Source: Bacilli bacterium (lineage in GTDB: Bacteria; Bacillota_I; Bacilli_A; RF39; UBA660). Taken from it: a DNA stretch of 45,881 bases. The notes under the pieces were generated by a model, which saw nothing but the letters and a program-made list of their open reading frames with translations, did no database searches and had not been told where the DNA came from. Made by a program: the position numbers and the translations under genes. The DNA lies in the NCBI GenBank assembly GCA_017405445.1, contig JAFRAK010000001.1, positions 1 to 45,881 of the forward strand, written 5' to 3'. Below are positions 4,678 through 35,407 of the stretch, in pieces; position 1 is the first letter of the stretch; each line of letters starts with the position of its first letter.

Positions 4678-5088
4678 TTAATTACTATTCTTGTTTTGAT
4701 TATCTGATTCTGACATATGATTTTGTTGATTATTGTTTTTGTCCTTTTTTCTTTGTTTATCATTTTGTTCTTGTCCATCTATTTCAGGTGGATTTTCACC
4801 TTGAGTTTCTTCATTCATGTTTGGATTATTTCTTATATTTCTGTGATCATTCATTCCAGGTGGTTGATTATTATTCCAATTATTTTGTATAGCAGTAGGT
4901 GTGTTGTTTTTTGCTGTTATTTTGTTATAAATTATACATCCACTTGTTGCAACAATTGCACCTATTAAAAATCCAATTATAAAAATGATAAATTTTTCTT
5001 TTATAAAGATAACCGTTTTTTCCTTCTCCATAGTATCTTCTTTAATTTCTTTTTTATTATGTTTTTTCTTCTTATCTTCTTCCACCAT
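4678..5088 (-). CDS. Small membrane-anchored protein with Asn/Gln-rich tail
   Basis: 136 residues. A Lys/Glu-rich cytoplasmic N-terminus (1-28) leads into one transmembrane helix (about 29-52, IIGFLIGAIVATSG) and then a polar extracellular tail rich in Asn, Pro, Gln and Asp (QPPGMNDHRN, NNNQQNH). No enzymatic motif. It overlaps the end of the upstream Cthe_2159-like gene by 17 bp, and its ribosome-binding site (GAGAGGAAATA) lies inside that gene. An internal ATG (residue 20) just before the helix is the alternative start. As the last gene of the envelope operon it probably acts at the cell surface. Function unknown. Confidence 0.75.
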   Translation of the reverse strand: MVEEDKKKKHNKKEIKEDTMEKEKTVIFIKEKFIIFIIGFLIGAIVATSGCIIYNKITAKNNTPTAIQNNWNNNQPPGMNDHRNIRNNPNMNEETQGENPPEIDGQEQNDKQRKKDKNNNQQNHMSESDNQNKNSN

Positions 5089-6271
5089 TATTTCCTCTCA
5101 TTCCTCCTCCCATCATTTGATTAGATAGAGTATCTGTTTCATTTCCATTTACAATAATTTTTCCTCCTGTTTTACTACCAGTTCCATCATAGTCAAATGG
5201 TGATTGTGCATTAATTGTTATTGTTCCTCCTGTAATTAATAAATCGCCATTTGAATCAATCGCATCGGTATCTCCTTGCCCCATATCAACAGTTATAGTT
5301 CCACCATTTATTTCAACTTTAATTGAATATTTTGAAGATTTATTGGCAGCATTAATTCCATCATCTGTTGCTTTAATATTAATTATTCCGTTGTTTATTA
5401 AAATATAAGTTCCTTCAATTCCTTCTCCTGCTGTAATATTAATTGTACCACCTTCAAATTGAGCTATAGTTGTAGCATGGATTCCGTCATCGCCTGCATT
5501 AATAGTAATATTTCCTCCTGATATATATACATAACCTACAGAATCATCTTCATCATATTCAGCGTGTAATCCATCTGTTCCAGCTTTTATTGCTAATGTT
5601 CCATCAGCAATACGAATAGAATCATTAGCTTGAAACCCTTTTGATGTTGCAGTTATATTATAGGTTCCTCCAGTTACTTTTAAATCATCTTTTGAAACAA
5701 CTCCATTATCAGTTGAATTAATTGTTAGAGTTGCAGTTCCATTTAAAGTTATATCTGATTTTGAGAATATAACTCCATCTGTGTTTGTATCTTTATCTGC
5801 CTTAAATGTTTCAGAGACAGTTAGTGAACTATCAGCTGATGTAGTTATAAATACTTTATCTCCTGATTTAACATATATACATGGAAAATTAGTATTTGTA
5901 ATATTTACACCATCCAACACTATCTGAATTTTAGCTTCATCATCTGCTTCTACATAAATTGTTGAATTAGTTGCTGTTCCACTTATTACATAAACTCCTT
6001 CTTTTGTAATATTTATATCTTTGCCACTTGTTACAGTATATTTTGTGGCATCAGTTGTATCTACTGTTTGTTCTAAATCTCTATCAGTAAACATTTCTGA
6101 TGTACTATAGGTATCATTTGTAACCGAAGTAGAGTTTGTTGAATTGTTTTTTTCACTATAAATTGCGTTGTTTGTATTATTAGAACTATTATCTTTTATG
6201 AAATATCCAATTAAACAAGCAAGAACAATCACTAAAACTACTACTAAAATCATATATCTCTTATTTTTCAT
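5072..6271 (-). CDS. Cthe_2159-like carbohydrate-binding beta-helix protein, membrane-anchored (copy 2)
   Basis: About 399 residues from ATG 6271, chosen because GAAAGG lies 9 nt upstream; the ATG at 6280 would abut the Shine-Dalgarno. An N-terminal anchor (ILVVVLVIVLACLIGYFI) is followed by a Thr/Ser/Asn-rich linker. The body from about residue 65 consists of repeated beta-strand turns (GVYVISGTATNSTIYV, KIQIVLDGVNITN, GDTDAIDSNGDLLITGG, DGINAANKSS) typical of Cthe_2159-type polysaccharide-binding right-handed beta-helices with Asp/Asn calcium sites. It ends in a Gly/Met/Asn-rich tail. It is a tandem paralogue of the next gene. Likely binds acidic polysaccharide at the surface. Confidence 0.85.
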   Translation of the reverse strand: MKNKRYMILVVVLVIVLACLIGYFIKDNSSNNTNNAIYSEKNNSTNSTSVTNDTYSTSEMFTDRDLEQTVDTTDATKYTVTSGKDINITKEGVYVISGTATNSTIYVEADDEAKIQIVLDGVNITNTNFPCIYVKSGDKVFITTSADSSLTVSETFKADKDTNTDGVIFSKSDITLNGTATLTINSTDNGVVSKDDLKVTGGTYNITATSKGFQANDSIRIADGTLAIKAGTDGLHAEYDEDDSVGYVYISGGNITINAGDDGIHATTIAQFEGGTINITAGEGIEGTYILINNGIINIKATDDGINAANKSSKYSIKVEINGGTITVDMGQGDTDAIDSNGDLLITGGTITINAQSPFDYDGTGSKTGGKIIVNGNETDTLSNQMMGGGMRGNNGGRR

Positions 6272-6285
6272 TACCATCATCCTTT

Positions 6286-7407
6286 CTATTTTGTTGAAGC
6301 AGGTATTTCACTTACTTCATTACCATTGATTATTATTTTTCCTCCATTTAATGTAGCTTCTCCTACATAATCAAATGGTAAACTAGCTGTTATATCAATT
6401 GTTCCTCCATTGATAGTTATATCGCCATTTGAATCAATCGCATCGGTATCTCCTTCATCAACTTTGATTGTGAGAGTTCCATTATTCATTTCAAATAAAG
6501 CGTTGTATGAATCACTTTTATTTGCCGCATTGATTCCATCATAAGTTGCATCTATATTAATGTTACCACCATTGATTTGAATGTAAGTTCCTTCAATTCC
6601 TTCTCCTGCTGTAATATTAATTTTTCCATCATCAACTTGAACAACTGATATAGCATGTATTCCATCATCAACTACATCAATGTTAATTATTCCACCACCA
6701 ATATAGACATATCCAAGTTTATCATCATCGCTATTTTCTGTATGTATTCCATCATCATCAGATTTGATGTTTACTTCTCCATCAGACATTGCAAATGAAT
6801 CATTAGCTTGAAGTCCTTTTGATGTTGCAGTTATATTATAAGTTCCTCCAGTTATTTTTAAATCATCTTTTGAAACAACTCCCTTATCAGTTGAATTAAT
6901 TGTTAGAGTTGCTGTTCCATTTAAAGTTATATCTGACCTAGAAAATATTACACCATCAGTTTTTGTACTACCATCCTTTATAAAGGTATCAATTACGGAA
7001 AGTGTACTATCATCAGATGTAGTTATAAATACTTTATCGCCTGATTTAACATATATACATGGGAAATTCGTGTTAGTAATACTTACACCATTTAAAACAA
7101 TTTGAACTTTATCGTCGCTTGCTGCTTCTACATAAATTGTTGAATTAGTTGCTGTTCCACTTATTACATAAACTCCTTCTGTAGTAATTGTAATATTCTC
7201 ATCTGATTTAACTGTATAACTAACTGCACTTGAAGTGTCAGCAGTTTGTTTTAAATCTCTTGATGAAAATAATTCTGATTCATTATATATTCCAGTTATT
7301 TTAGTATTTTCTTTTGCCATTTCTTCATTTTTGGTTAATAAGTAAACTCCTATACAAAGTATTAAACCTAAAACTACTGCAAATATTATTATTTCCTTAT
7401 TTTTTAT
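6286..7407 (-). CDS. Cthe_2159-like carbohydrate-binding beta-helix protein (copy 1); unusual start
   Basis: The first in-frame ATG (7320) gives 344 residues and no anchor, and it has no Shine-Dalgarno. The frame is open upstream for 29 more codons that encode a clear membrane anchor (IIIFAVVLGLILCIGVYLL). A strong GGAGG (7416-7420) lies 8 nt before an in-frame ATA at 7407 and 5 nt before an ATC at 7410. I therefore extend the gene to 7407, with a rare AUA/AUC start, or an ATG lost by point mutation. The rest is the same beta-helix as its neighbour, with shared DNA blocks of high identity. The polypeptide probably displays a polysaccharide-binding domain outside the cell, next to the CotH-like protein. 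Confidence 0.78.
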   Translation of the reverse strand: MKNKEIIIFAVVLGLILCIGVYLLTKNEEMAKENTKITGIYNESELFSSRDLKQTADTSSAVSYTVKSDENITITTEGVYVISGTATNSTIYVEAASDDKVQIVLNGVSITNTNFPCIYVKSGDKVFITTSDDSTLSVIDTFIKDGSTKTDGVIFSRSDITLNGTATLTINSTDKGVVSKDDLKITGGTYNITATSKGLQANDSFAMSDGEVNIKSDDDGIHTENSDDDKLGYVYIGGGIINIDVVDDGIHAISVVQVDDGKINITAGEGIEGTYIQINGGNINIDATYDGINAANKSDSYNALFEMNNGTLTIKVDEGDTDAIDSNGDITINGGTIDITASLPFDYVGEATLNGGKIIINGNEVSEIPASTK

Positions 7408-8870: not shown

Positions 8871-9599
8871 CTATCTCATATATGAATCAACTATTTTTCT
8901 TCCAAAATAATACTTTGAAAAAGATGTTTGATTCATACTATTCAATTCTAATATATTTTTTATGTATGATGGCAAGATATGATCAAATTTAACCTCTAAT
9001 AAATTCATATTGCTTGGCATTATATAGAATTTTCTATAATCATTATCCAAAAATTTATCTAATTCATATGATGCTGAAATTTTCATATCAAATGTAACTC
9101 TAACATTAGATATTTCTTCAACATAAGCAATTCTTTCATAATCAATGATTATCTCTGGATGATAACCATTTTTCATCATATCAACTGCTAACTCTTTTAT
9201 TAATTTTTTACTTGTCTCATAAACTAATTCTTCAATATTTCCAGATACAATCAGGTTATATTCTTCTACTGTTAGCTTACAAGTTTTTTTTCTACCACCT
9301 GTATCTAATTTTTCTTTCTTTTCTAATTTTATGTAGGTTAAATCATCTCCATAATATCTAATTCTCCATTTATATTTGATACCGAGTCCTGCTAGATTTC
9401 CATATAAACTATCATTTCTATAATTATCGAAATATAATGAATGAATTAAATATCTACCATATGATGGTGTATGTGGATCTAGTTCTAAAATCTTAGATAC
9501 TCTTTCTTTCATAGAACTAAGTTCTTGATTTCTTAACAAGTATTTCCACTCGCTACGATATTTACTTATTTTAATCACCAATCCTTTACTATTATTCAT
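8871..9599 (-). CDS. VTC-domain (polyphosphate polymerase-like) protein
   Basis: 242 residues with the VTC fold signatures. These are an early basic segment (SKYRSEWKYLL), SLYFDNYRNDSLY, the charged strand GIKYKWRIRYYG, KLEKKEKLDTGGRKKTCKLT, and a late EVKFDHILPSYI. In yeast Vtc4 these lysines and arginines line a tunnel that makes polyphosphate from ATP; in bacteria the substrate is unproven. The ATG at 9599 has no Shine-Dalgarno. A GTG at 9578 (residue 8, AAAGG 4 nt upstream) is the more likely start and matches the usual beginning of the domain. It is the first gene of a six-gene operon under a response-regulator box (9658-9674). Confidence 0.88.
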   Translation of the reverse strand: MNNSKGLVIKISKYRSEWKYLLRNQELSSMKERVSKILELDPHTPSYGRYLIHSLYFDNYRNDSLYGNLAGLGIKYKWRIRYYGDDLTYIKLEKKEKLDTGGRKKTCKLTVEEYNLIVSGNIEELVYETSKKLIKELAVDMMKNGYHPEIIIDYERIAYVEEISNVRVTFDMKISASYELDKFLDNDYRKFYIMPSNMNLLEVKFDHILPSYIKNILELNSMNQTSFSKYYFGRKIVDSYMR

Positions 9600-9641
9600 T
9601 ACAATATATTATTAAAATATTGTTTTTCCCCTTTCGCTATA

Positions 9642-9674
9642 ATCATATATGTTAAAACTTAAATGAAAATTAAA
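9642..9674 (-). promoter_or_regulatory. Response-regulator box promoter of the VTC operon
   Basis: On the minus strand: TTTAAT (9674-9669), 5 nt, TTTAAG (9663-9658), 10 nt, then -10 TATGAT (9647-9642). There is no -35 hexamer; the direct repeat with 11-bp period takes its place. The upstream half-site overlaps the stop codon of the preceding operon. Same geometry as at 11955-11987, 12133-12165 and 14094-14126. Confidence 0.75.
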
Positions 9675-10068: not shown

Positions 10069-10924
10069 TCACACTCCTTTCAGAAGTTCCTCTACCACTA
10101 GTAGTAGGATTATTTATAACTTTTCCGTTAAAATACATTGTTGATGATCCTCCACCATCTAAATTATAAGCAGTTACACATCCAATATTTTTCATAAATT
10201 CTGCTAACTCTAGTAATGATAAACCTTCACTATCATTACTTCTTCCATCAGATACTACGAAAATAATAGTTCCATCTTTAAGAACTCCTATTGCAGTTCT
10301 TGGATTACTTGCCATAGCTTTTCCTACTTCATCATTTGCATCTACAGATATTTTTCCATTTATTATTAATCCTGGTCCGAATGATAAGATATTGTAAGCA
10401 CCTTTTTCTAATAAATTTTCTAAAGATATATCTGATTCATTTATTATTTCCATAGTTCCATCTTCATATATAACAAGATCTTCTTTACCACTTACTGCTA
10501 TGTTTCTATAAATAACTCCATTTTTTAAAACATATCCTTTTTCTTGTGCTCCATAATAATCTCCATTTATTGCAAGTATAGCATTATTATCTTCTGCTAT
10601 TGTACTTGTCTTTGCTGTAACGTTTTTACCATAACTATTATTAGCTAATGCTGTTTTTAATAATTCACTATCTCCCTTAATACTTGCTACGTATATCGTC
10701 GTATCTTTTTCTCTATATGTTTTAAGTTCTATATCTACATTTTCATCTTTATAAGTTGTTTCTGTTATAGTTTTTTCACTATCAGATGGTTCTATTAATG
10801 TTTTATTTTTAGAGCTATTATTTGCAACTTGATATACTTCACTCAAAACAAAAGTATTTAGTAAAACAAATATTGTAAATATAGACAAAATGGATAAATA
10901 ACATATATTAAATATTTTTTTCAT
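10043..10924 (-). CDS. NAGPA-domain phosphodiester glycosidase family protein
   Basis: 293 residues with an N-terminal signal or anchor (ICYLSILSIFTIFVLLNTFVLS). The domain from about residue 65 shows the family's marks: NGDYYG (about 118), KNGVIYRN, NPRTAIGVLKDGTIIFVVSDGR (about 207-228) and the highly conserved NLDGGGSSTMYFNG (about 254-267), ending ERSVSDIVYI. Relatives include the mammalian uncovering enzyme, which removes GlcNAc from phosphodiesters, and bacterial exopolysaccharide/teichoic-acid-associated proteins. It probably acts outside the membrane on a sugar-phosphate bond. The gene overlaps the glycosyltransferase gene by 17 bp, with GGAGG inside that gene. Confidence 0.92.
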   Translation of the reverse strand: MKKIFNICYLSILSIFTIFVLLNTFVLSEVYQVANNSSKNKTLIEPSDSEKTITETTYKDENVDIELKTYREKDTTIYVASIKGDSELLKTALANNSYGKNVTAKTSTIAEDNNAILAINGDYYGAQEKGYVLKNGVIYRNIAVSGKEDLVIYEDGTMEIINESDISLENLLEKGAYNILSFGPGLIINGKISVDANDEVGKAMASNPRTAIGVLKDGTIIFVVSDGRSNDSEGLSLLELAEFMKNIGCVTAYNLDGGGSSTMYFNGKVINNPTTSGRGTSERSVSDIVYIGY

Positions 10925-11933
10925 TTACTTGCTCACCTCCAATAAATATTATCTTCTTTTGAATTATATAACTAATGCTAAATAATAATATTTCTGTTAA
11001 TATTTTTGCAATTACTTTATTTAATCCTATATAAACTAATCCATTTAATATTAGTGTATTAAATACCAAGATAGTTATAGCAAGTAATATATATTTGATA
11101 GCAGATTTCTCACTATTCTTGCGAAATACAATTTTCTTGTTAAAGTTATAATTAAATGTTGCACTTATAATTCTAGCTAGTATATTTGATATAGTTAAAT
11201 TTATAAAAAGACTAAATATTATAAATAGAAAATAATCAATTAAGAAACTACATAACGATGATAATGAGAATTTAAATATTTCTTTATAAATTCTAAACGA
11301 ATCCTTAAATGCATTAAAATGACTGCCAGAATTATCATCAATATATATTGTTTCAATTTCTATTTCTTTAGCTTGTATATTATTTCTTTTTAGATTGAGT
11401 AACATATTCATTTCATATTCATATCTTTCGCCTTCAACTTCCAACATGTAATCTATTAAATTACTATGAAAACATCTAAGTCCTGTTTGAGTATCATATA
11501 TATCAGTACCACTTATTAGATTAAATATTTTTCTTGTTATAGCATTACCTAATTTACTTCTTAAAGGAGTTTTTTCATTTCTAATTCTTTTACCTAATGC
11601 TAAATTATTATTATTTTTAAAAATATAATCACATAGTTTTTTAGCATCTACCACTCTATGTTGTCCATCACTATCTACAGTTACAACTATACTTTCTTTG
11701 TAATTATCTTTTATATACTTAAGTCCTGTTTTTAAAGCATGTCCTTTACCTTGATTTTCATCGTAGTTTATAACTTTCGCATACTTCTTACATTCATCAA
11801 ATATATTGTTATATTTTTCACCGCTTCCATCATTTACTACAACGTTAATAAAATTATTATTATTTAGTTCTTTAACTAATTTAATTATTTTATCATCTGG
11901 TTCGAATGATGGAATTAATGCAATATAATTCAT
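10908..11933 (-). CDS. GT2 glycosyltransferase with GtrA-like membrane domain
   Basis: 341 residues. The N-terminal GT-A domain (1-210) starts YIALIPSFEPDDKI and has VVVNDGSG and the metal-binding TVDSDGQH (DxD equivalent, about 85-92), as in polyprenyl-phosphate glycosyltransferases. The C-terminal part (about 225-335) has four membrane helices with the GtrA pattern (FSLSSLCSFLIDYFLF, NYNFNKKIVFRK). Fusions of this kind make and flip polyprenyl-linked sugars used to decorate wall polymers. First gene of a three-gene operon, with GAAAGGAGG 6 nt upstream and a response-regulator box promoter at 11955-11987. Confidence 0.93.
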   Translation of the reverse strand: MNYIALIPSFEPDDKIIKLVKELNNNNFINVVVNDGSGEKYNNIFDECKKYAKVINYDENQGKGHALKTGLKYIKDNYKESIVVTVDSDGQHRVVDAKKLCDYIFKNNNNLALGKRIRNEKTPLRSKLGNAITRKIFNLISGTDIYDTQTGLRCFHSNLIDYMLEVEGERYEYEMNMLLNLKRNNIQAKEIEIETIYIDDNSGSHFNAFKDSFRIYKEIFKFSLSSLCSFLIDYFLFIIFSLFINLTISNILARIISATFNYNFNKKIVFRKNSEKSAIKYILLAITILVFNTLILNGLVYIGLNKVIAKILTEILLFSISYIIQKKIIFIGGEQVNEKNI

Positions 11934-11954
11934 CTAATTCCTCCTTTCGCTATA

Positions 11955-11987
11955 ATCATAACCGTTTAAACTTAAATAAAAATTAAA
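11955..11987 (-). promoter_or_regulatory. Response-regulator box promoter of the GtrA-type operon
   Basis: Minus strand: TTTAAT (11987-11982), 5 nt, TTTAAG (11976-11971), 10 nt, -10 TATGAT (11960-11955), followed by TATAGCG exactly as in the VTC operon promoter. The box overlaps the foot of the small-RNA terminator by a few bases. Confidence 0.75.
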
Positions 11988-12018
11988 AAATACAACTTGT
12001 TTGTAAGTTGTATTTTTT
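11985..12018. terminator. Strong bidirectional-type terminator of the small RNA
   Basis: A perfect 14-bp stem (AAAAAATACAACTT at 11985-11998 with its complement at 12005-12018) has a 6-nt loop and U-rich strands on both sides. In minus direction it ends the transcript from the 12133 promoter. Confidence 0.85.
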
Positions 12019-12126
12019 CTTAATTATTCTATATAATTCCTCCTTCACATTATTTGTTATCTATTAAAAAAATTGTTATATTCATTTCAATTTTTATACT
12101 TAATTAATCATCTATCACTTCCTTAC
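11985..12126 (-). ncRNA. Candidate small regulatory RNA, csRNA-like
   Basis: A complete transcription unit without a gene: a response-regulator box (12149-12165), 10-nt spacer, -10 TATTAT (12138-12133), then about 140 nt ending in the perfect terminator at 12018-11985. The transcript has two Shine-Dalgarno-like stretches, AAGGAAGUG near its 5' end and GAAGGAGG near 12045-12038. Only minute frames follow them (ATG-ATT-AAT-TAA; none after the second). Streptococcal CiaR controls small csRNAs from the same kind of box, and these carry such anti-ribosome-binding or mimic segments. The function here is inference; a decayed small gene is the alternative. Confidence 0.55.
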
Positions 12127-12132
12127 ATTTCC

Positions 12133-12165
12133 ATAATAGTACTCTTATATTAAATGAAAATTAAA
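12133..12165 (-). promoter_or_regulatory. Response-regulator box promoter of the small RNA
   Basis: Minus strand: TTTAAT (12165-12160), 5 nt (TTTCA), TTTAAT (12154-12149), 10 nt, -10 TATTAT (12138-12133). The second half-site is TTTAAT rather than TTTAAG; otherwise the geometry is identical to the three gene promoters. Confidence 0.7.
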
Positions 12166-12169
12166 TAAC

Positions 12170-12196
12170 AAAAAAAACAGAATTTTTTTATTCTGT
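12170..12196 (-). terminator. Terminator of the two-component operon
   Basis: The stem ACAGAAT/ATTCTGT (12177-12183 with 12190-12196) is followed in minus direction by eight T. It begins right after the kinase stop codon. Confidence 0.85.
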
Positions 12197-13396
12197 TTAT
12201 AGTTTGATTGTAAATGTTGTATATCCATTTTTGCAATTTACTGATATTTTTCCATTATAGTTTTCTATAATATTTTTAGCTATTGCAAGACCTAGACCAT
12301 ATCTATTTTCTTTTCTATTTCTAGATTTATCTCCTCTATAAAATCTATCGAATATTTTTTCTCTTTCACTTATTGGAATTTCTTCTCCTTTATTGATAAC
12401 ATCCAATATAATATTATTCTTTTCTTTATAGAGTTTTATTTTAATTGTACTTTTCTTTTCACTATGTTTAATAGCATTATCAACTAAAATATTTACAACC
12501 TCTTTTATTTGTTCTGGATCACATTTATACGAAATATCTTTTGTTATTTCTGATTCTATATTTATATCTTGTTCAAATGCTAAACTTTCAAATGTTAATG
12601 ACCTGTTTTCAACTATTTTTGATAAATTTTCAATTGATAAATCATTATTGTGTATTTTTTCAGTTCTTGATAGCTCTAATAATTTCTTAACTAAATTATC
12701 CATTCTTTCTGTTTCACTTTTAATATTATTCAGATACTTTTTTTCTTTTGGACTTTTTTCTAAGCTTTCAGCACTAGCAAGTATTACTGCAATAGGAGTT
12801 TTTAATTCATGTGATGCATCATAAATAAAATTCTTTTGCTTTTCGAATGATTCTTCCACTGGTTTTGCCAACCAATTTGTTAGTAACTTAGATATAATTA
12901 CAATGAAACATTCTAGTAGAAGTATTATTATTATTGAGGATATTAAAGCCATATTCAAAATATTTCGTGTAATATCATTTTTTACTATTAATAGGTTACC
13001 CTCTCTATTTGTTGAGAAAACATATTTATCAAAATATAAGTTTCCTGTAAATCCATCTTTTGTATCTTTTATTTTACTTATATTAAGATTTCTTATTATA
13101 CTACTTATCTCCTCCTTTGATATTTCATTATCTGTATAGTTTTCTATATTTTGAATATTACCATAACTATCAAATGATACCTTGTAAGCATCTAATCCAA
13201 CAAACATCGGTGCTTTATTGTCTTTAGGAAATTTATTATTCCTATTATCAACATTTTCCATTCTCATAATATTATCAACTAATCTAGATTCTTCACTATG
13301 ATATAGTGATACATTAAAAGCAATCATACCTACTAATAAAAAAACTGAAAATATAGATACTAGAAGTATGAATGTCTTACTCTTCAGATTCTTCAT
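12197..13396 (-). CDS. Sensor histidine kinase
   Basis: 399 residues. TM1 about 8-30, an extracytoplasmic sensor region of about 115 residues (31-145) and TM2 about 147-170. A HisKA domain follows with the phospho-acceptor H196 in FIYDASHELKTPIAV. Then comes an HATPase_c domain with N box DNAIKH, G1 box RFYRGDKSRN and G2 box YGLGLAIAKNII. It should autophosphorylate in response to an envelope signal and phosphorylate the regulator encoded just upstream, whose frame it overlaps by 20 bp. The small extracellular domain has no known fold I recognise. Overall layout resembles CiaH/PhoR-type kinases. Confidence 0.95.
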   Translation of the reverse strand: MKNLKSKTFILLVSIFSVFLLVGMIAFNVSLYHSEESRLVDNIMRMENVDNRNNKFPKDNKAPMFVGLDAYKVSFDSYGNIQNIENYTDNEISKEEISSIIRNLNISKIKDTKDGFTGNLYFDKYVFSTNREGNLLIVKNDITRNILNMALISSIIIILLLECFIVIISKLLTNWLAKPVEESFEKQKNFIYDASHELKTPIAVILASAESLEKSPKEKKYLNNIKSETERMDNLVKKLLELSRTEKIHNNDLSIENLSKIVENRSLTFESLAFEQDINIESEITKDISYKCDPEQIKEVVNILVDNAIKHSEKKSTIKIKLYKEKNNIILDVINKGEEIPISEREKIFDRFYRGDKSRNRKENRYGLGLAIAKNIIENYNGKISVNCKNGYTTFTIKL

Positions 13397-14075
13397 TTGT
13401 TACCTCCAATCTATATCCAACACCTCTTAATGCTTTGATATTAACTTTTGATCCAATTGATTTTAATTTTTTTCTAATAAACGAAATATATGCTTCCAAA
13501 TTGTTTGATATGCTATCATTATCTATACCCCAAATGTTTTCATATATTATTTCTTTAGGTACTATTTGATTTTTATTGTTTATAAGTAGTTCTAATATTT
13601 GAAATTCTTTATGAATAAGTTCTATTTGTTCTCCTGTTATATTTGAACTTACATATGAACTTTTAATATTTAATTTAATATCTCCAAATTCAATATAATC
13701 TTTATTTTTAACACTTGTATCTTTTCTGAGTTGAATATTTACTCTAGCAACTAATTCATCCATATGAAAAGGTTTAGTCAAATAATCATCGGCACCTCCA
13801 GTTAAGCCTGTTAATTTGTCATCTATTTCTCCTCTAGCAGTTAACATTAGTATTTTAGATTTAATATCATTTTCTTTTATTTCTTCTAATATTTGAAAAC
13901 CATCTTTATATGGTAGCATCACATCTAATATTATTAAATCATATATATTTGTTAAAGCATTATAAGAACCATCTTCTCCATCCAATGAAACATCTACATC
14001 ATATTTTTCCTTTTTTAATCTATCTTTAATAAGATCTGCTATTTTTTCTTCATCTTCTATAACTAAAACTCTCAT
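13377..14075 (-). CDS. OmpR/PhoB-family response regulator
   Basis: 232 residues. The receiver domain (1-120) has the acidic pocket E7-D8, phospho-acceptor D51 (LIILDVMLPYKDG), the T/S position LMLTA and K in YLTKPF. The winged-helix DNA-binding domain (about 135-226) has IELIHKEFQILELLINN, VPKEIIYENIWG, NNLEAYISFIRKKL and IKALRGVGYRL. Regulators of this family bind direct repeats on one face of DNA. Four promoters nearby, including its own (14094-14126), carry such repeats, so autoregulation is likely. The -10 is only ~18 bp before the ATG, so the leader is very short. It is co-transcribed with the kinase. Confidence 0.96.
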   Translation of the reverse strand: MRVLVIEDEEKIADLIKDRLKKEKYDVDVSLDGEDGSYNALTNIYDLIILDVMLPYKDGFQILEEIKENDIKSKILMLTARGEIDDKLTGLTGGADDYLTKPFHMDELVARVNIQLRKDTSVKNKDYIEFGDIKLNIKSSYVSSNITGEQIELIHKEFQILELLINNKNQIVPKEIIYENIWGIDNDSISNNLEAYISFIRKKLKSIGSKVNIKALRGVGYRLEVTNEESEE

Positions 14076-14093: not shown

Positions 14094-14126
14094 AATATAA
14101 CTTTTAAAACTTAAATAAACATTAAA
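14094..14126 (-). promoter_or_regulatory. Response-regulator box promoter of the two-component operon (autoregulation)
   Basis: Minus strand: TTTAAT (14126-14121), 5 nt, TTTAAG (14115-14110), 10 nt, -10 TATATT (14099-14094). Transcription would start ~12 nt before the regulator's ATG. Confidence 0.72.
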
Positions 14127-16944: not shown

Positions 16945-17002
16945 AGATTTTTAATCTTCCTTTCTTAAATATAGTCATACAATTGATACTTTAAGTTTAA
17001 AT

Positions 17003-17039
17003 AAAGAAAGTGATACTATTTAAAAGTATCACTTTCTTT
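17003..17039. terminator. Terminator between convergent genes
   Basis: A perfect 15-bp stem (17003-17017 with 17025-17039) has a 7-nt loop; T-rich sequence follows on the plus side and similarly on the minus side. It separates the LysM gene from the convergent WXG-like gene. Confidence 0.82.
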
Positions 17040-17073
17040 ATTTGATGTATTATTACAATAATTTTAAAGTTCT

Positions 17074-31156: not shown

Positions 31157-31181
31157 CTATTTTTTTATTAGCACTTTTTTT
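31147..31181 (-). terminator. Terminator of the BspA-like gene
   Basis: A 13-bp stem (31147-31159 with 31169-31181) has an A/T-tract on both flanks. The gene's TAG stop (31157-31159) is inside the stem. Confidence 0.85.
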
Positions 31182-34100
31182 AGTTTGTTATTTTTATGAG
31201 TAGCATAAGTAATTCCAAGTATTGATAAAATGAATAAGATAAATAATATTTTTGCATTTACTGTTTGAGGGTTAGTCATTTCATATGGATTTTCTGGATC
31301 TACTCCTGGATCTGGATAAACGATTTCATATTTTTCCCATGTTGCGGTATAAATAACATCTTTTGTTGCTTTTGGAGCAATTTCTTTATCCCATCCCATA
31401 AAGACATATCCTTCTCTTGTTGGAGTTCCATTAAATTGTGGAGTATCAGAATTGATTGGTAAATCAAAGTATACTACATTCGCAAATGATTCTCCTCCAC
31501 AGCCATCTGCATAAACAATATTTACTGTGTCAGCATCAGCATTTAAATTTGTTTCTGTTTGATTATCAGTAATTATGTTTTGATATTGGAAACTAATTTT
31601 TAATTTCGTTGGGTCTTCTTCATCAGGTTCTACTGCACAGTCTAAGTTCTCAAAGTTATTATTTGTTTCAACATCGATATCTTCTATATTCCTTGTTGTT
31701 TTAAATACTTTTTTACTAGGATCAGTTGTATTAGCATCGTAATCAACAATTGTAATTCCACTATCTACATATTTAACTGCATCTGTTAATTTTTGCCATT
31801 CTTCAGATACTAAGACAATTCCATCTCTTCTTAATGCATAAACTATTAAGTCATCTGTTAATAATCCAGATTTATCTTCTGAGAATTCAATTTGATTCTT
31901 ATTTGAATCTAAGTAAATTACTTCATCTAAGAAATATAAATTAGATTCAGCTTCATCTCTATATTTTTGATATGTTTCATGATAAGTAATACATTCTTCA
32001 TTATCTGAATAACAATATAGATTAGCAGTTGATGGTATTGTCATGGTATCATCACTTTTATCTCTTACTACTATTTTACCATCATATGGTTTATCTATAT
32101 ATATATCATTTGAAGTTGTTAAAGTAATTGATGTTATCGTGTTAACTGGACTATAACTATATCTATTATTTGTAAAGTCTGCTGCCGTTATGGTTGTTTC
32201 TCCATTTGCTGCATCATTTAATAATATTTCGAAATCCGTTTTCTCCGTTTCCAATGCGAATTCAATTGAATTAATGTTTTCTGATGTTACAGTTTGTGTT
32301 GGAGTAGAATTTGCAATAGTAGGACTACCATATATAACAAAAGTATCTAATGCTGTATCAGATGCAAATGCTTGTACTCCAATATTTGTAATCGTATGAT
32401 CTAATGTTACGCTCTCTAATGATACATCATTATAGAATGTTCCTTTTGGAATATTTCCATCTGCTGTTTTAAAGTTTTCTACTTTCACTAGATTTGGCAT
32501 GAATGAGAAGATAAAATTATCTGTTAAAGTAATATTATTGTTAACAATATCCATACCAGAATACTCATTACCTAATGTTTCTAAGCCAGATCTTAGAAAA
32601 GCAAATTTACCAATATTAATATCTAATCCTTGTCTTAATTTAACATTTAATAATGCTGGTGTATCCATAAATGCATACATACCGATATCTGTTAAATTTT
32701 CGTCTGCAGATAAATCTACTTCTACTAGATTATCACATTCTATGAAAGCATACGGAGTAATAGCATGAAGATTTTTGAAAACTATTTTGGTAACATCCAT
32801 ATCACAAAACTCTGGTAAATAACCATAGTTTGGTGAAGCTTGATAAAGTCCTTCACTTGGTAATTCTGTAACATTATCCTCAAAATTCAATATACTGACA
32901 GATGTACCGTGTAATAAATCTAATACTCTATCACCATTTGTTACGGTACTCGTCAATGCACATTTGAAAGTTACTGAATTTCTTGCAAGATTCGCATAGG
33001 TTTTCGTATGGTCTTGGATGTCTCCTGAAAATGCAGCATGACCAATTGATGTTACTGTAGCCGGTACAACAATATTATCATTAAATTTACAATCAGAAAA
33101 AGCATTGGCTCCTATTGTTTTTAAAGAGGTTGGTAAATTGTTTGGCACATTAACATTAGCACTCATAAAAGCACGTTCACCAATCGTTTGTAGTCCGCTT
33201 GGAAGAGTCAAATCATTTGTCACTTTTGTTTTAAAGAATGCATTATATCCAATTGTTGTTAAAGTAGAAGGTAATTTTAATGTTTCAACTTGTGCTTCTT
33301 GTAAGAAATTATTCGGCATAGAAGTTATGGATAGTCCTTCTAGGTCAATTACTTTTGCTTTTACACCAAAGAACATTCCATGATTTCGTGTTGTTGATGG
33401 TATTGTGACTCTAGAAGTAAATTTTATTAAATCATATTCGTTTGAAAAATTACTGGATGTCATGTAATTATAACCAGAATTTGCTGTTGGGAAATAACTT
33501 AGAATTTCTTTTCTATCCTCAGATGCTGAAGCAAAATTGAAAAAATTACAATCTATAATTATTTTTTTCAAATATGGAGTATGATGAAAGGCATTGTTTC
33601 CTGAACTTGTTAGTGTACTCGGCAATGTAACTCCAGTAATATTAGAATACTCGAATGCATAAGCTCCAACGGTTTTTAGATTTGGAAGATCTAAATCAAT
33701 ATTTAATCCTGTACATCCTCTAAATGCACAGTCCCCAATATATGTTATTCCTGTAGATAATGTTATACTAGTTCCACTATTACGCAAAGCATATTCAAAT
33801 GCACATTCCCCTATTCCTAATACAGAATTTGGCATTGTAATATTTACTAAGCTTTTAGTTGTGGTTGGAGGATAATTTCCATATGATGGTTGGTTCCAAA
33901 GGTTAAAGTTCCTTCCCCCAATGAAATGATAGCCATCTCCTATTGTTAATTTTTGAAGGGAATTTAAGTTGTTCAAAAAGCTAGCCTGTAATACATTTTT
34001 ATATGTACTACTATTATTGTTAATCATATTATATTCTGTTGAAGATCCTCCATAAGATCTGGAAGCTCCATAATTAGAAATAATACGGGCAGTATCACCA

Positions 34101-35407
34101 GATGAATATGGAGCAACTAATACTACTTCCTGAATAGTATTTGCTGCTGATTTAGATGAGTCAGTAAAAAGATTAGATGTACCACAAAGAACCCATAGTG
34201 CATTTATTTTATTTGATAATGTATCAAACGCTATAGTTACTCTTGTTATTGGATTGTTATACCAAATAGAAGCTGTATCCATATAGGAAAGACTTTTCGG
34301 TAAATATAAATTTGATATTAGATTATTGGCAAAAGCACCATGTTCAATTTTTTGAACACTTCTCAAATCTAATGATGATATTTTAGAATTATTAAATGCT
34401 TGCGGTCCAATTTCAATTACATTATTTAAATATGGACTACTAATAAATGTGTTTGCAAAAGCTTTATAAGGAATTACTGTAACGGAATTTGGTACATATA
34501 AAGTATTTAATTTCGAATTATTAAATGCTTCATCTCCTATTACTGAAATGCTTGTGGAACTAAAATCACCATTCGTCATATAGGTGTTTTTAAATGCTTC
34601 TGATCCAATGGATGTAATATGATTCCAAGTAATGTTTGCACTTGGTGTATTCATAAATGCACCTGCTTGTATTTCATAAGCATTATTTAAAAAACTAATT
34701 GTTGATAAATTCGAACATCCTTTAAATGCTGAAACTCCAACAGTTCCATTTATACTTAAACTTGAAGTGTTTGAGTTTTCAAATGAACCAGCTAACACAG
34801 CTGTAGTGTTTGGTAAACTGATTACTGGATTTTGAAATGTTACTCCATAGAATGCTCCAGGTCCTACTAGGGTTACTTTATCTAAATTAACCATATTTAA
34901 TTTTAAACTTCTAAATACATCCTTTCCTACTTCGGAAGCGGTTGAATTTAATGTAATTGTTACATAATTTGAAGTACTCATATTATTTCTAAAAGGAGTT
35001 ACTCCATCAACTTTATTTGCATTAGATAAATCAAGAGAAGTCACAACGTTTGAAAATGTTGATGGGGTTCCTAAATTGTGATCTGCAAAATTCTCAAATA
35101 CATATGTTGCATTACTAGAAATAGATGCATCTTCTGCTTGAAAGAAAGATAATGTAGGTATCGTATATGAATTAGATGATGATGTCGTATCAAAAAAGGA
35201 TACATGTAAGGTTGTAGTAGTAGAATCATATCCATATTGCCATCTATTACCATTACTATCTGTTACTAAATGATATACTACTTCCGCATTTACTGGAACA
35301 TAGTAAAAGAATGCCATAACTGTTGCAATTACCATTAGTATTGGTGTAAATAGCATTAAATATTTTTTCCTTCTTAGAAATTTTTTCATTTTTTTCATAT
35401 AAATCAC
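31157..35407 (-). CDS. BspA-like leucine-rich-repeat surface protein with NPQT-type anchor
   Basis: 1416 residues. The signal segment is at about 15-40 (LMLFTPILMVIATVMAFFYY, then VPVNAEV). A long LRR_5/BspA-type array from about residue 150 to 1010 repeats units such as I-G-x-x-A-F-x-x-x (IGSEAFKNTYM, IGDEAFNNSKL, IGPQAFNNSKI, IGYNAFFKTKV). A less regular region of about 200 residues follows. Near 1315-1370 lies a Listeria/Bacteroides-type repeat (REGYVFMGWDKE...YTATWEK). The end is NPYEMTNPQTV, a hydrophobic helix and the basic tail KNNKLKKVLIKK, an anchor of sortase type with NPQT instead of LPXTG. It is probably displayed on the wall for adhesion. Confidence 0.9.
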   Translation of the reverse strand: MIYMKKMKKFLRRKKYLMLFTPILMVIATVMAFFYYVPVNAEVVYHLVTDSNGNRWQYGYDSTTTTLHVSFFDTTSSSNSYTIPTLSFFQAEDASISSNATYVFENFADHNLGTPSTFSNVVTSLDLSNANKVDGVTPFRNNMSTSNYVTITLNSTASEVGKDVFRSLKLNMVNLDKVTLVGPGAFYGVTFQNPVISLPNTTAVLAGSFENSNTSSLSINGTVGVSAFKGCSNLSTISFLNNAYEIQAGAFMNTPSANITWNHITSIGSEAFKNTYMTNGDFSSTSISVIGDEAFNNSKLNTLYVPNSVTVIPYKAFANTFISSPYLNNVIEIGPQAFNNSKISSLDLRSVQKIEHGAFANNLISNLYLPKSLSYMDTASIWYNNPITRVTIAFDTLSNKINALWVLCGTSNLFTDSSKSAANTIQEVVLVAPYSSGDTARIISNYGASRSYGGSSTEYNMINNNSSTYKNVLQASFLNNLNSLQKLTIGDGYHFIGGRNFNLWNQPSYGNYPPTTTKSLVNITMPNSVLGIGECAFEYALRNSGTSITLSTGITYIGDCAFRGCTGLNIDLDLPNLKTVGAYAFEYSNITGVTLPSTLTSSGNNAFHHTPYLKKIIIDCNFFNFASASEDRKEILSYFPTANSGYNYMTSSNFSNEYDLIKFTSRVTIPSTTRNHGMFFGVKAKVIDLEGLSITSMPNNFLQEAQVETLKLPSTLTTIGYNAFFKTKVTNDLTLPSGLQTIGERAFMSANVNVPNNLPTSLKTIGANAFSDCKFNDNIVVPATVTSIGHAAFSGDIQDHTKTYANLARNSVTFKCALTSTVTNGDRVLDLLHGTSVSILNFEDNVTELPSEGLYQASPNYGYLPEFCDMDVTKIVFKNLHAITPYAFIECDNLVEVDLSADENLTDIGMYAFMDTPALLNVKLRQGLDINIGKFAFLRSGLETLGNEYSGMDIVNNNITLTDNFIFSFMPNLVKVENFKTADGNIPKGTFYNDVSLESVTLDHTITNIGVQAFASDTALDTFVIYGSPTIANSTPTQTVTSENINSIEFALETEKTDFEILLNDAANGETTITAADFTNNRYSYSPVNTITSITLTTSNDIYIDKPYDGKIVVRDKSDDTMTIPSTANLYCYSDNEECITYHETYQKYRDEAESNLYFLDEVIYLDSNKNQIEFSEDKSGLLTDDLIVYALRRDGIVLVSEEWQKLTDAVKYVDSGITIVDYDANTTDPSKKVFKTTRNIEDIDVETNNNFENLDCAVEPDEEDPTKLKISFQYQNIITDNQTETNLNADADTVNIVYADGCGGESFANVVYFDLPINSDTPQFNGTPTREGYVFMGWDKEIAPKATKDVIYTATWEKYEIVYPDPGVDPENPYEMTNPQTVNAKILFILFILSILGITYATHKNNKLKKVLIKK

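Follow-up and report, generated by a model that had tools for sequence, protein, structure and literature searches.

A putative ribosome-docking leader RNA behind a sensor histidine kinase gene of an uncultured Bacilli bacterium

Predicted transcription unit between the kinase and glycosyltransferase genes

In the contig JAFRAK010000001.1 of a Bacilli bacterium (assembly GCA_017405445.1, lineage RF39, UBA660), of which 45,881 nucleotides were analysed (hereafter the window), a short intergenic unit lies on the minus strand between the genes for a sensor histidine kinase (HK) and a glycosyltransferase, and the question it raises is what kind of RNA such a unit would give. In an earlier note, made from the sequence alone, it had been proposed to be a small RNA resembling the CiaR-dependent small RNAs (csRNAs) of streptococci and controlled by the adjacent two-component system (TCS). 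The reading favoured here, with about even confidence, is that the unit is most likely a leader-type RNA driven by the response regulator (RR) of this TCS and carrying a 5′-terminal ribosome-docking module, cut off here by a terminator as a free short RNA.

Read along the minus strand, the terminator of the HK gene is followed by a direct-repeat box, 10 nt, a TATTAT element, the predicted start, a first Shine-Dalgarno sequence (SD1), a micro-open reading frame (micro-ORF), an A/T-rich stretch, a second Shine-Dalgarno sequence (SD2) and a hairpin (Table 1). The box-dependent promoter, the two ribosome-binding-site-like stretches and the terminator described in the earlier note are thus all present, and its account of an intergenic non-coding unit between the two genes is accurate, apart from the strand, which it omitted. 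Pairing with the 3′ tail of 16S rRNA, for which GGATCACCTCCTTTCT was taken from relatives of the same class and not from this genome, reaches −11.8 kcal/mol for SD1 and −12.4 kcal/mol for SD2, a level met by about 0.24% of the 14-mers sampled from the window. SD1 precedes the micro-ORF alone and SD2 has no start codon at the usual spacing, so that neither directs the translation of a protein, as is required of an SD of the STAB-SD type.

The hairpin consists of 14 perfect pairs plus one (15 bp, AU-rich) with a loop of 4–6 nt and a U-run, has an energy of about −12.8 kcal/mol, and was not produced at this locus by any of 30 shuffles; a generic terminator scanner requiring at least three G-C pairs misses it because it has so few of them. 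No Rfam family matches the unit at the gathering score, and no remnant of an ORF was found in the frames of this stretch. An RNA from the plus strand was rejected: anti-SD-like letters are found there, but there is no box and promoter matches are at chance level.

Table 1. Features of the predicted RNA unit and of the surrounding TCS cluster (window positions)
Feature	Position	Strand	Basis or remark
Predicted RNA, ~142–147 nt	11985..12126	-	start inferred from −10, end from terminator
Direct-repeat box TTTAAT-TTTCA-TTTAAT (TTTAAT-N5-TTTAAT), putative RR site	12149..12165	-	sequence; genome counts; relatives
−10 element TATTAT, exactly 10 nt past the box	12133..12138	-	sequence
SD1 AAGGAAGTGAT, ~2–3 nt from the predicted 5′ end	12114..12124	-	extended complementarity to the 16S 3′ tail
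Micro-ORF ATG ATT AAT TAA (MIN*)	12100..12111	-	sequence; same in G011
SD2 GAAGGAGG, then ATATAG	12039..12046	-	no ATG/GTG/TTG at start-codon spacing
Intrinsic terminator hairpin AAAAAATACAACTT-ACAAAC-AAGTTGTATTTTTT	11985..12018	-	T-run overlaps the next box
Terminator of the HK gene	~12172–12202	-	directly ahead of the RNA-unit box
HK gene	12197..13396	-	Pfam HisKA + HATPase_c
OmpR-family RR gene	13377..14075	-	Pfam Response_reg + Trans_reg_C
Box and −10 of the RR gene, putative autoregulation	14094..14126	-	pattern with 1 mismatch; conserved in relatives
GT2/GtrA-type glycosyltransferase gene	10908..11933	-	Pfam
Box and −10 of the glycosyltransferase gene, own SD GAAAGGAGG, ATG at 11933	11955..11987	-	sequence, pattern matches
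Box and −10 of the VTC-domain gene	9642..9674	-	5′ part nearly copies the glycosyltransferase promoter

In the near twin G011 the HK is 96% identical to that of the window genome and the intergenic stretch about 95% identical, a divergence close to that of the two flanking genes, where 11 of 180 fourfold sites have changed. The HK terminator, the box, the −10 element, the core of SD1, SD2 and the terminator stem are free of substitutions, as is the whole part from SD2 through the terminator; the changes are concentrated in the spacers, the next promoter and an approximately 11-base linker. Since this is a single comparison with boundaries picked afterwards, the pattern is only suggestive.

Promoter box and its local regulon

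Within the 1.74-Mb genome the strict pattern TTTAAK-N5-TTTAAK-N10-TAWNAT is matched exactly at three sites, all of them in this TCS cluster: at the RNA unit and in the promoters of the glycosyltransferase and VTC genes. The RR promoter comes next with one mismatch. The four hits of the near-identical pattern in the window were reached by none of 100 shuffles. The bare box TTTAATNTTNATTTAA is matched exactly five times in the genome, four times inside these 4.5 kb (control, 0), and TTTAAG occurs in the adjacent boxes of the cluster only as the second half-site. As exact matches of the strict pattern are confined to the cluster, the regulon is regarded as local; a wider one was rejected, boxes beyond the cluster being about as frequent as those of a reversed-pattern control.

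It is natural to suppose from this arrangement that the box is bound by the adjacent RR, and the supposition is strengthened by the identical box found upstream of the RR gene in most of 82 relatives. The RR protein has no NCBIfam equivalog above the cut-off among the matches listed. Its recognition-helix stretch reads NLEAYISFIRKKL, against VVEVYVSKVRKKL in CiaR; the two are related OmpR-type sequences, not identical.

A 50-nt near repeat (86%, window 9625–9674 and 11938–11987) covers the promoter and the 5′ end of the VTC and glycosyltransferase genes, so that modules of box promoter and SD must have been duplicated inside the cluster. In the VTC leader (window 9642–9597), a small palindrome CAATATTTTAATAATATATTG lies between the SD-like GAAAGGGG and the ATG at 9599, which gives the impression of a hairpin spanning the gap from SD to start codon; where this gene really begins is uncertain.

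Kinase-downstream loci in relatives

Whole genomes were searched with the HK protein, and the stretches downstream of its homologues gave 85 distinct loci, which were assigned to classes by automatic rules. An exact box lies no more than 90 bases past the HK gene in 58 of them; these 58 comprise 25 loci in which the SD serves a real gene directly behind it, 30 with an orphan SD, i.e. an SD at the 5′ end of the RNA with either no ORF behind it or one of 1–16 codons, and three with a weak SD only. On the kinase tree at least eight changes separate the orphan and gene states, orphans being found on several deep branches, and the orphan 5′ SD recurs at the equivalent site in deeply diverged relatives.

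In eight of the 30 orphan loci, among them those of the window and its near twin, an intrinsic terminator precedes the next gene (shuffling expects 0.03 in all), with the stems kept and the sequences completely different between species. The remaining 22 continue into the next gene as its leader. Comparison of the sequences thus indicates conservation of the box and the 5′ module, and in some lineages of the terminator as well, but not of the body or the micro-peptide.

The order of 5′ micro-ORF, terminator and same-strand operon is also that of an attenuator, in which the terminator would act as a switch regulating the glycosyltransferase operon and read-through would be set by translation of the micro-ORF. 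The next gene, however, has a complete box promoter of its own directly behind the terminator, no alternative anti-terminator pairing is seen in the minimum-energy folds, and the same module occurs without a terminator in 22 relatives, which makes such a switch very improbable.

Some of the loci deserve a separate description. The shortest unit is that of L120 (0–130 nt past the HK stop), in which box and SD are followed by a terminator some 50 nt past the predicted start; a further box and a further orphan SD then precede an ABC permease-like gene. In L129, about 190–200 nt past the HK stop, CTGCTCCTTTC in the putative free RNA could pair with the RNA's own 5′ SD, an arrangement found at this locus only. 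In L004, L005, L008 and L125 the leader of a small membrane-protein gene contains two successive modules of box, SD and micro-ORF, the second of which, TATATAGAAAAGGAGATGATATATGAA, is nearly invariant, with a variable micro-peptide.

Strength and sequence of the orphan Shine-Dalgarno sequences

The orphan SDs pair with the 16S tail at a median of −13.05 kcal/mol, against −10.7 kcal/mol for 261 gene SDs of the same loci (p=8e-8, a value which overstates independence because the rows are related). The motif AAG(G)TGAT is found in 16 of the 30 orphans and in 12 of 329 gene upstream stretches.

The strongest rival explanation takes the module for a relic ribosome-binding site (RBS), the remaining 5′ end of a lost or replaced gene behind the HK gene, with the promoter retained for the next operon. 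A real gene does stand directly behind the SD in 25 of the 58 box loci, promoter modules do duplicate in the cluster, and in the Lachnospiraceae locus L144 the motif AGAAAGGAAGTGAT-ATG begins a VTC-type gene at this position: just past the HK stop at 2423, a TTTAAT-N5-TTTAAG box is followed by AGAAAGGAAGTGATGATC-ATG of the apparent VTC-type gene, as read by eye. On the other side, the orphan SD is still present on deep branches of the HK tree, where the non-coding sequence around it can no longer be aligned, it is stronger than gene SDs, the orphan motif AAGGAAGGTGATATATG differs in shallow groups from the gene RBS AAAGGAGGAATATTATG of the sister species, and the window frames are free of ORF remnants. 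A relic is accordingly given a rather low probability. A decayed 5′ end of a protein gene, which the earlier note had named as the finding that would speak against its proposal, does not describe the stretch either, since a 5′ SD recurring in deeply diverged relatives is not simply one decaying gene. The box/RBS arrangement of L144 was also noted as an occurrence outside the Bacilli family.

Another explanation starts from the micro-ORFs themselves: in 13 of the 25 orphans with TGAT there is an ATG at TGATNNATG, and ORFs of 2–11 codons follow (e.g. MIN*, MK*, MLK*), so that the RNA could be a functional minigene whose repeated translation would lead to peptidyl-tRNA drop-off or ribosome occupancy, as in the lambda bar minigenes. 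A strong SD with a very short ORF is common to these minigenes, to leader peptides and to the present module, but here the peptide is not conserved and several members, as well as SD2, lack a start codon. Nor are the orphan ORFs significantly shorter than random ones (mean 5.2 against 7.2 codons, p=0.10), and a minigene function is therefore considered improbable. A conserved micro-peptide was rejected as well, as the micro-ORFs vary among relatives and their shortness is not significant; two sets of orthologous leaders retain the SD and the ATG and differ in the codons behind them.

A proposed ribosome-docking module at the 5′ end

It has been reported that a strong 5′ SD stabilises RNA in Bacilli, with no need for a start codon (PMC3997798), and that the STAB-SD of cry3A binds the 30S subunit and halts RNase J1 (PMC4113751). 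This genome encodes two homologues of RNase J above the cut-off, and each of the 39 genomes of the genus has at least one. On the strength of this literature and of the RNase J homologues, the module is taken for a ribosome-docking 5′ element.

Under control of the RR, RNA polymerase would initiate at about 12126, and with this start the RNA would open almost directly with a strong SD and a micro-ORF of three codons; it would end about 145 nt further on at the intrinsic terminator. A 30S subunit or an initiating ribosome might then dock at the 5′ end and shield the RNA from 5′-to-3′ decay by RNase J, like the STAB-SD on the cry3A mRNA. In many relatives the proposed docking module belongs to the leader that precedes the next gene; here the leader is terminated and a separate box promoter serves the next gene, which would make the product a free, ribosome-capped short RNA, whose downstream role, if any, can only be presumed. 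The likeness to the Bacillus thuringiensis cry3A STAB-SD lies in a strong SD near the 5′ end, which is a predicted one here, and in the presence of RNase J. Unlike cry3A, the module is under the putative control of a two-component box, often has the start codon of a micro-ORF, has a stabilising effect that is only predicted, and in the window runs into a terminator, which would leave nothing downstream to be stabilised.

Several observations weigh against a docking module. Genes directly behind the box have their SD at an equal distance, so that an orphan SD might be what remains of an RBS, and AGAAAGGAAGTGAT is the ordinary RBS of the VTC-type gene at the same place in L144. An ATG at good spacing in 13 of the 25 TGAT orphans exceeds what a pure STAB-SD requires, and the genome's own 16S tail was looked for in its assembly and not found.

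On balance the element is real and recurrent and probably modest, being a 5′ SD stabiliser or leader module and neither a csRNA nor categorically new. There is a small chance that such units are widespread TCS-controlled non-coding RNAs of uncultured Bacilli which occupy 30S subunits or initiating ribosomes in trans through their 5′ SD and micro-ORF. The locus offers a concrete and testable case, in a large group of uncultured gut-type Bacilli, of putative TCS-driven transcripts opening with a conserved docking module that is not followed by a gene of its own; if this is confirmed, the 5′ SD stabilisers, represented by a few Bacillus leaders, would come to include a recurrent element under regulation.

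Comparison with csRNAs

csRNAs are intergenic, are 50–200 nt long with a terminator within 250 nt, and carry anti-SD and anti-AUG segments; the CiaR box is a direct repeat NTTAAG-N5-TTTAAG in which the final G of each half is invariable and essential, with the −10 element ten bases on (PMC3091779). The unit in the window shares with them the N5 direct-repeat box, the distance to the −10 element, the intergenic position, the terminator at the end and a similar size (~145 nt), and on these grounds it could be a csRNA-like trans-acting small RNA repressing mRNAs through pairing with their start regions. It differs from them in its TTTAAT half-site, which lacks the required final G, in its fixed place behind the HK gene, csRNAs being variable in position, and in carrying an SD instead of anti-SD and anti-AUG segments.

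The last difference is decisive for the mechanism. The 107-nt body has only two C's, and neither CAU nor CCU/UCC occurs in the RNA, so that the anti-SD and anti-AUG segments of csRNAs are missing. The two stretches which the earlier note described as ribosome-binding-site-like are SD sequences themselves and therefore cannot pair with other SDs, and duplexes with the 33 start regions of the window are no better than those of shuffles (mean z +0.5, best −1.1; targets were not searched genome-wide). Moreover, the body is not conserved between species. Pairing of the csRNA type was rejected on base content and duplex tests, and a trans-acting repressor of this kind is considered improbable. What stands of the proposal is a box-driven, intergenic, terminator-ended unit tied to the local TCS: the common promoter geometry and layout speak for a similar kind of promoter, and not for a csRNA. 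Units of box promoter and terminator should not automatically be called csRNAs.

A sponge for CsrA of the CsrB type was also rejected, as no CsrA was found above the cut-off in 98 genomes of the family with positive controls, the genome of the window itself being 71.6% complete.

Other features of the window

The VTC/DUF4956 cluster ends in two neighbouring genes with Cthe_2159 carbohydrate-binding domains (window 5072–7320, minus strand). A protein of 1416 aa (31157–35407, minus strand) contains six stretches of BspA-type leucine-rich repeats. A terminator-like inverted repeat of 22 nt with 1-nt spacing and 95% complementarity lies 3′ of a LysM gene (16999–17043).
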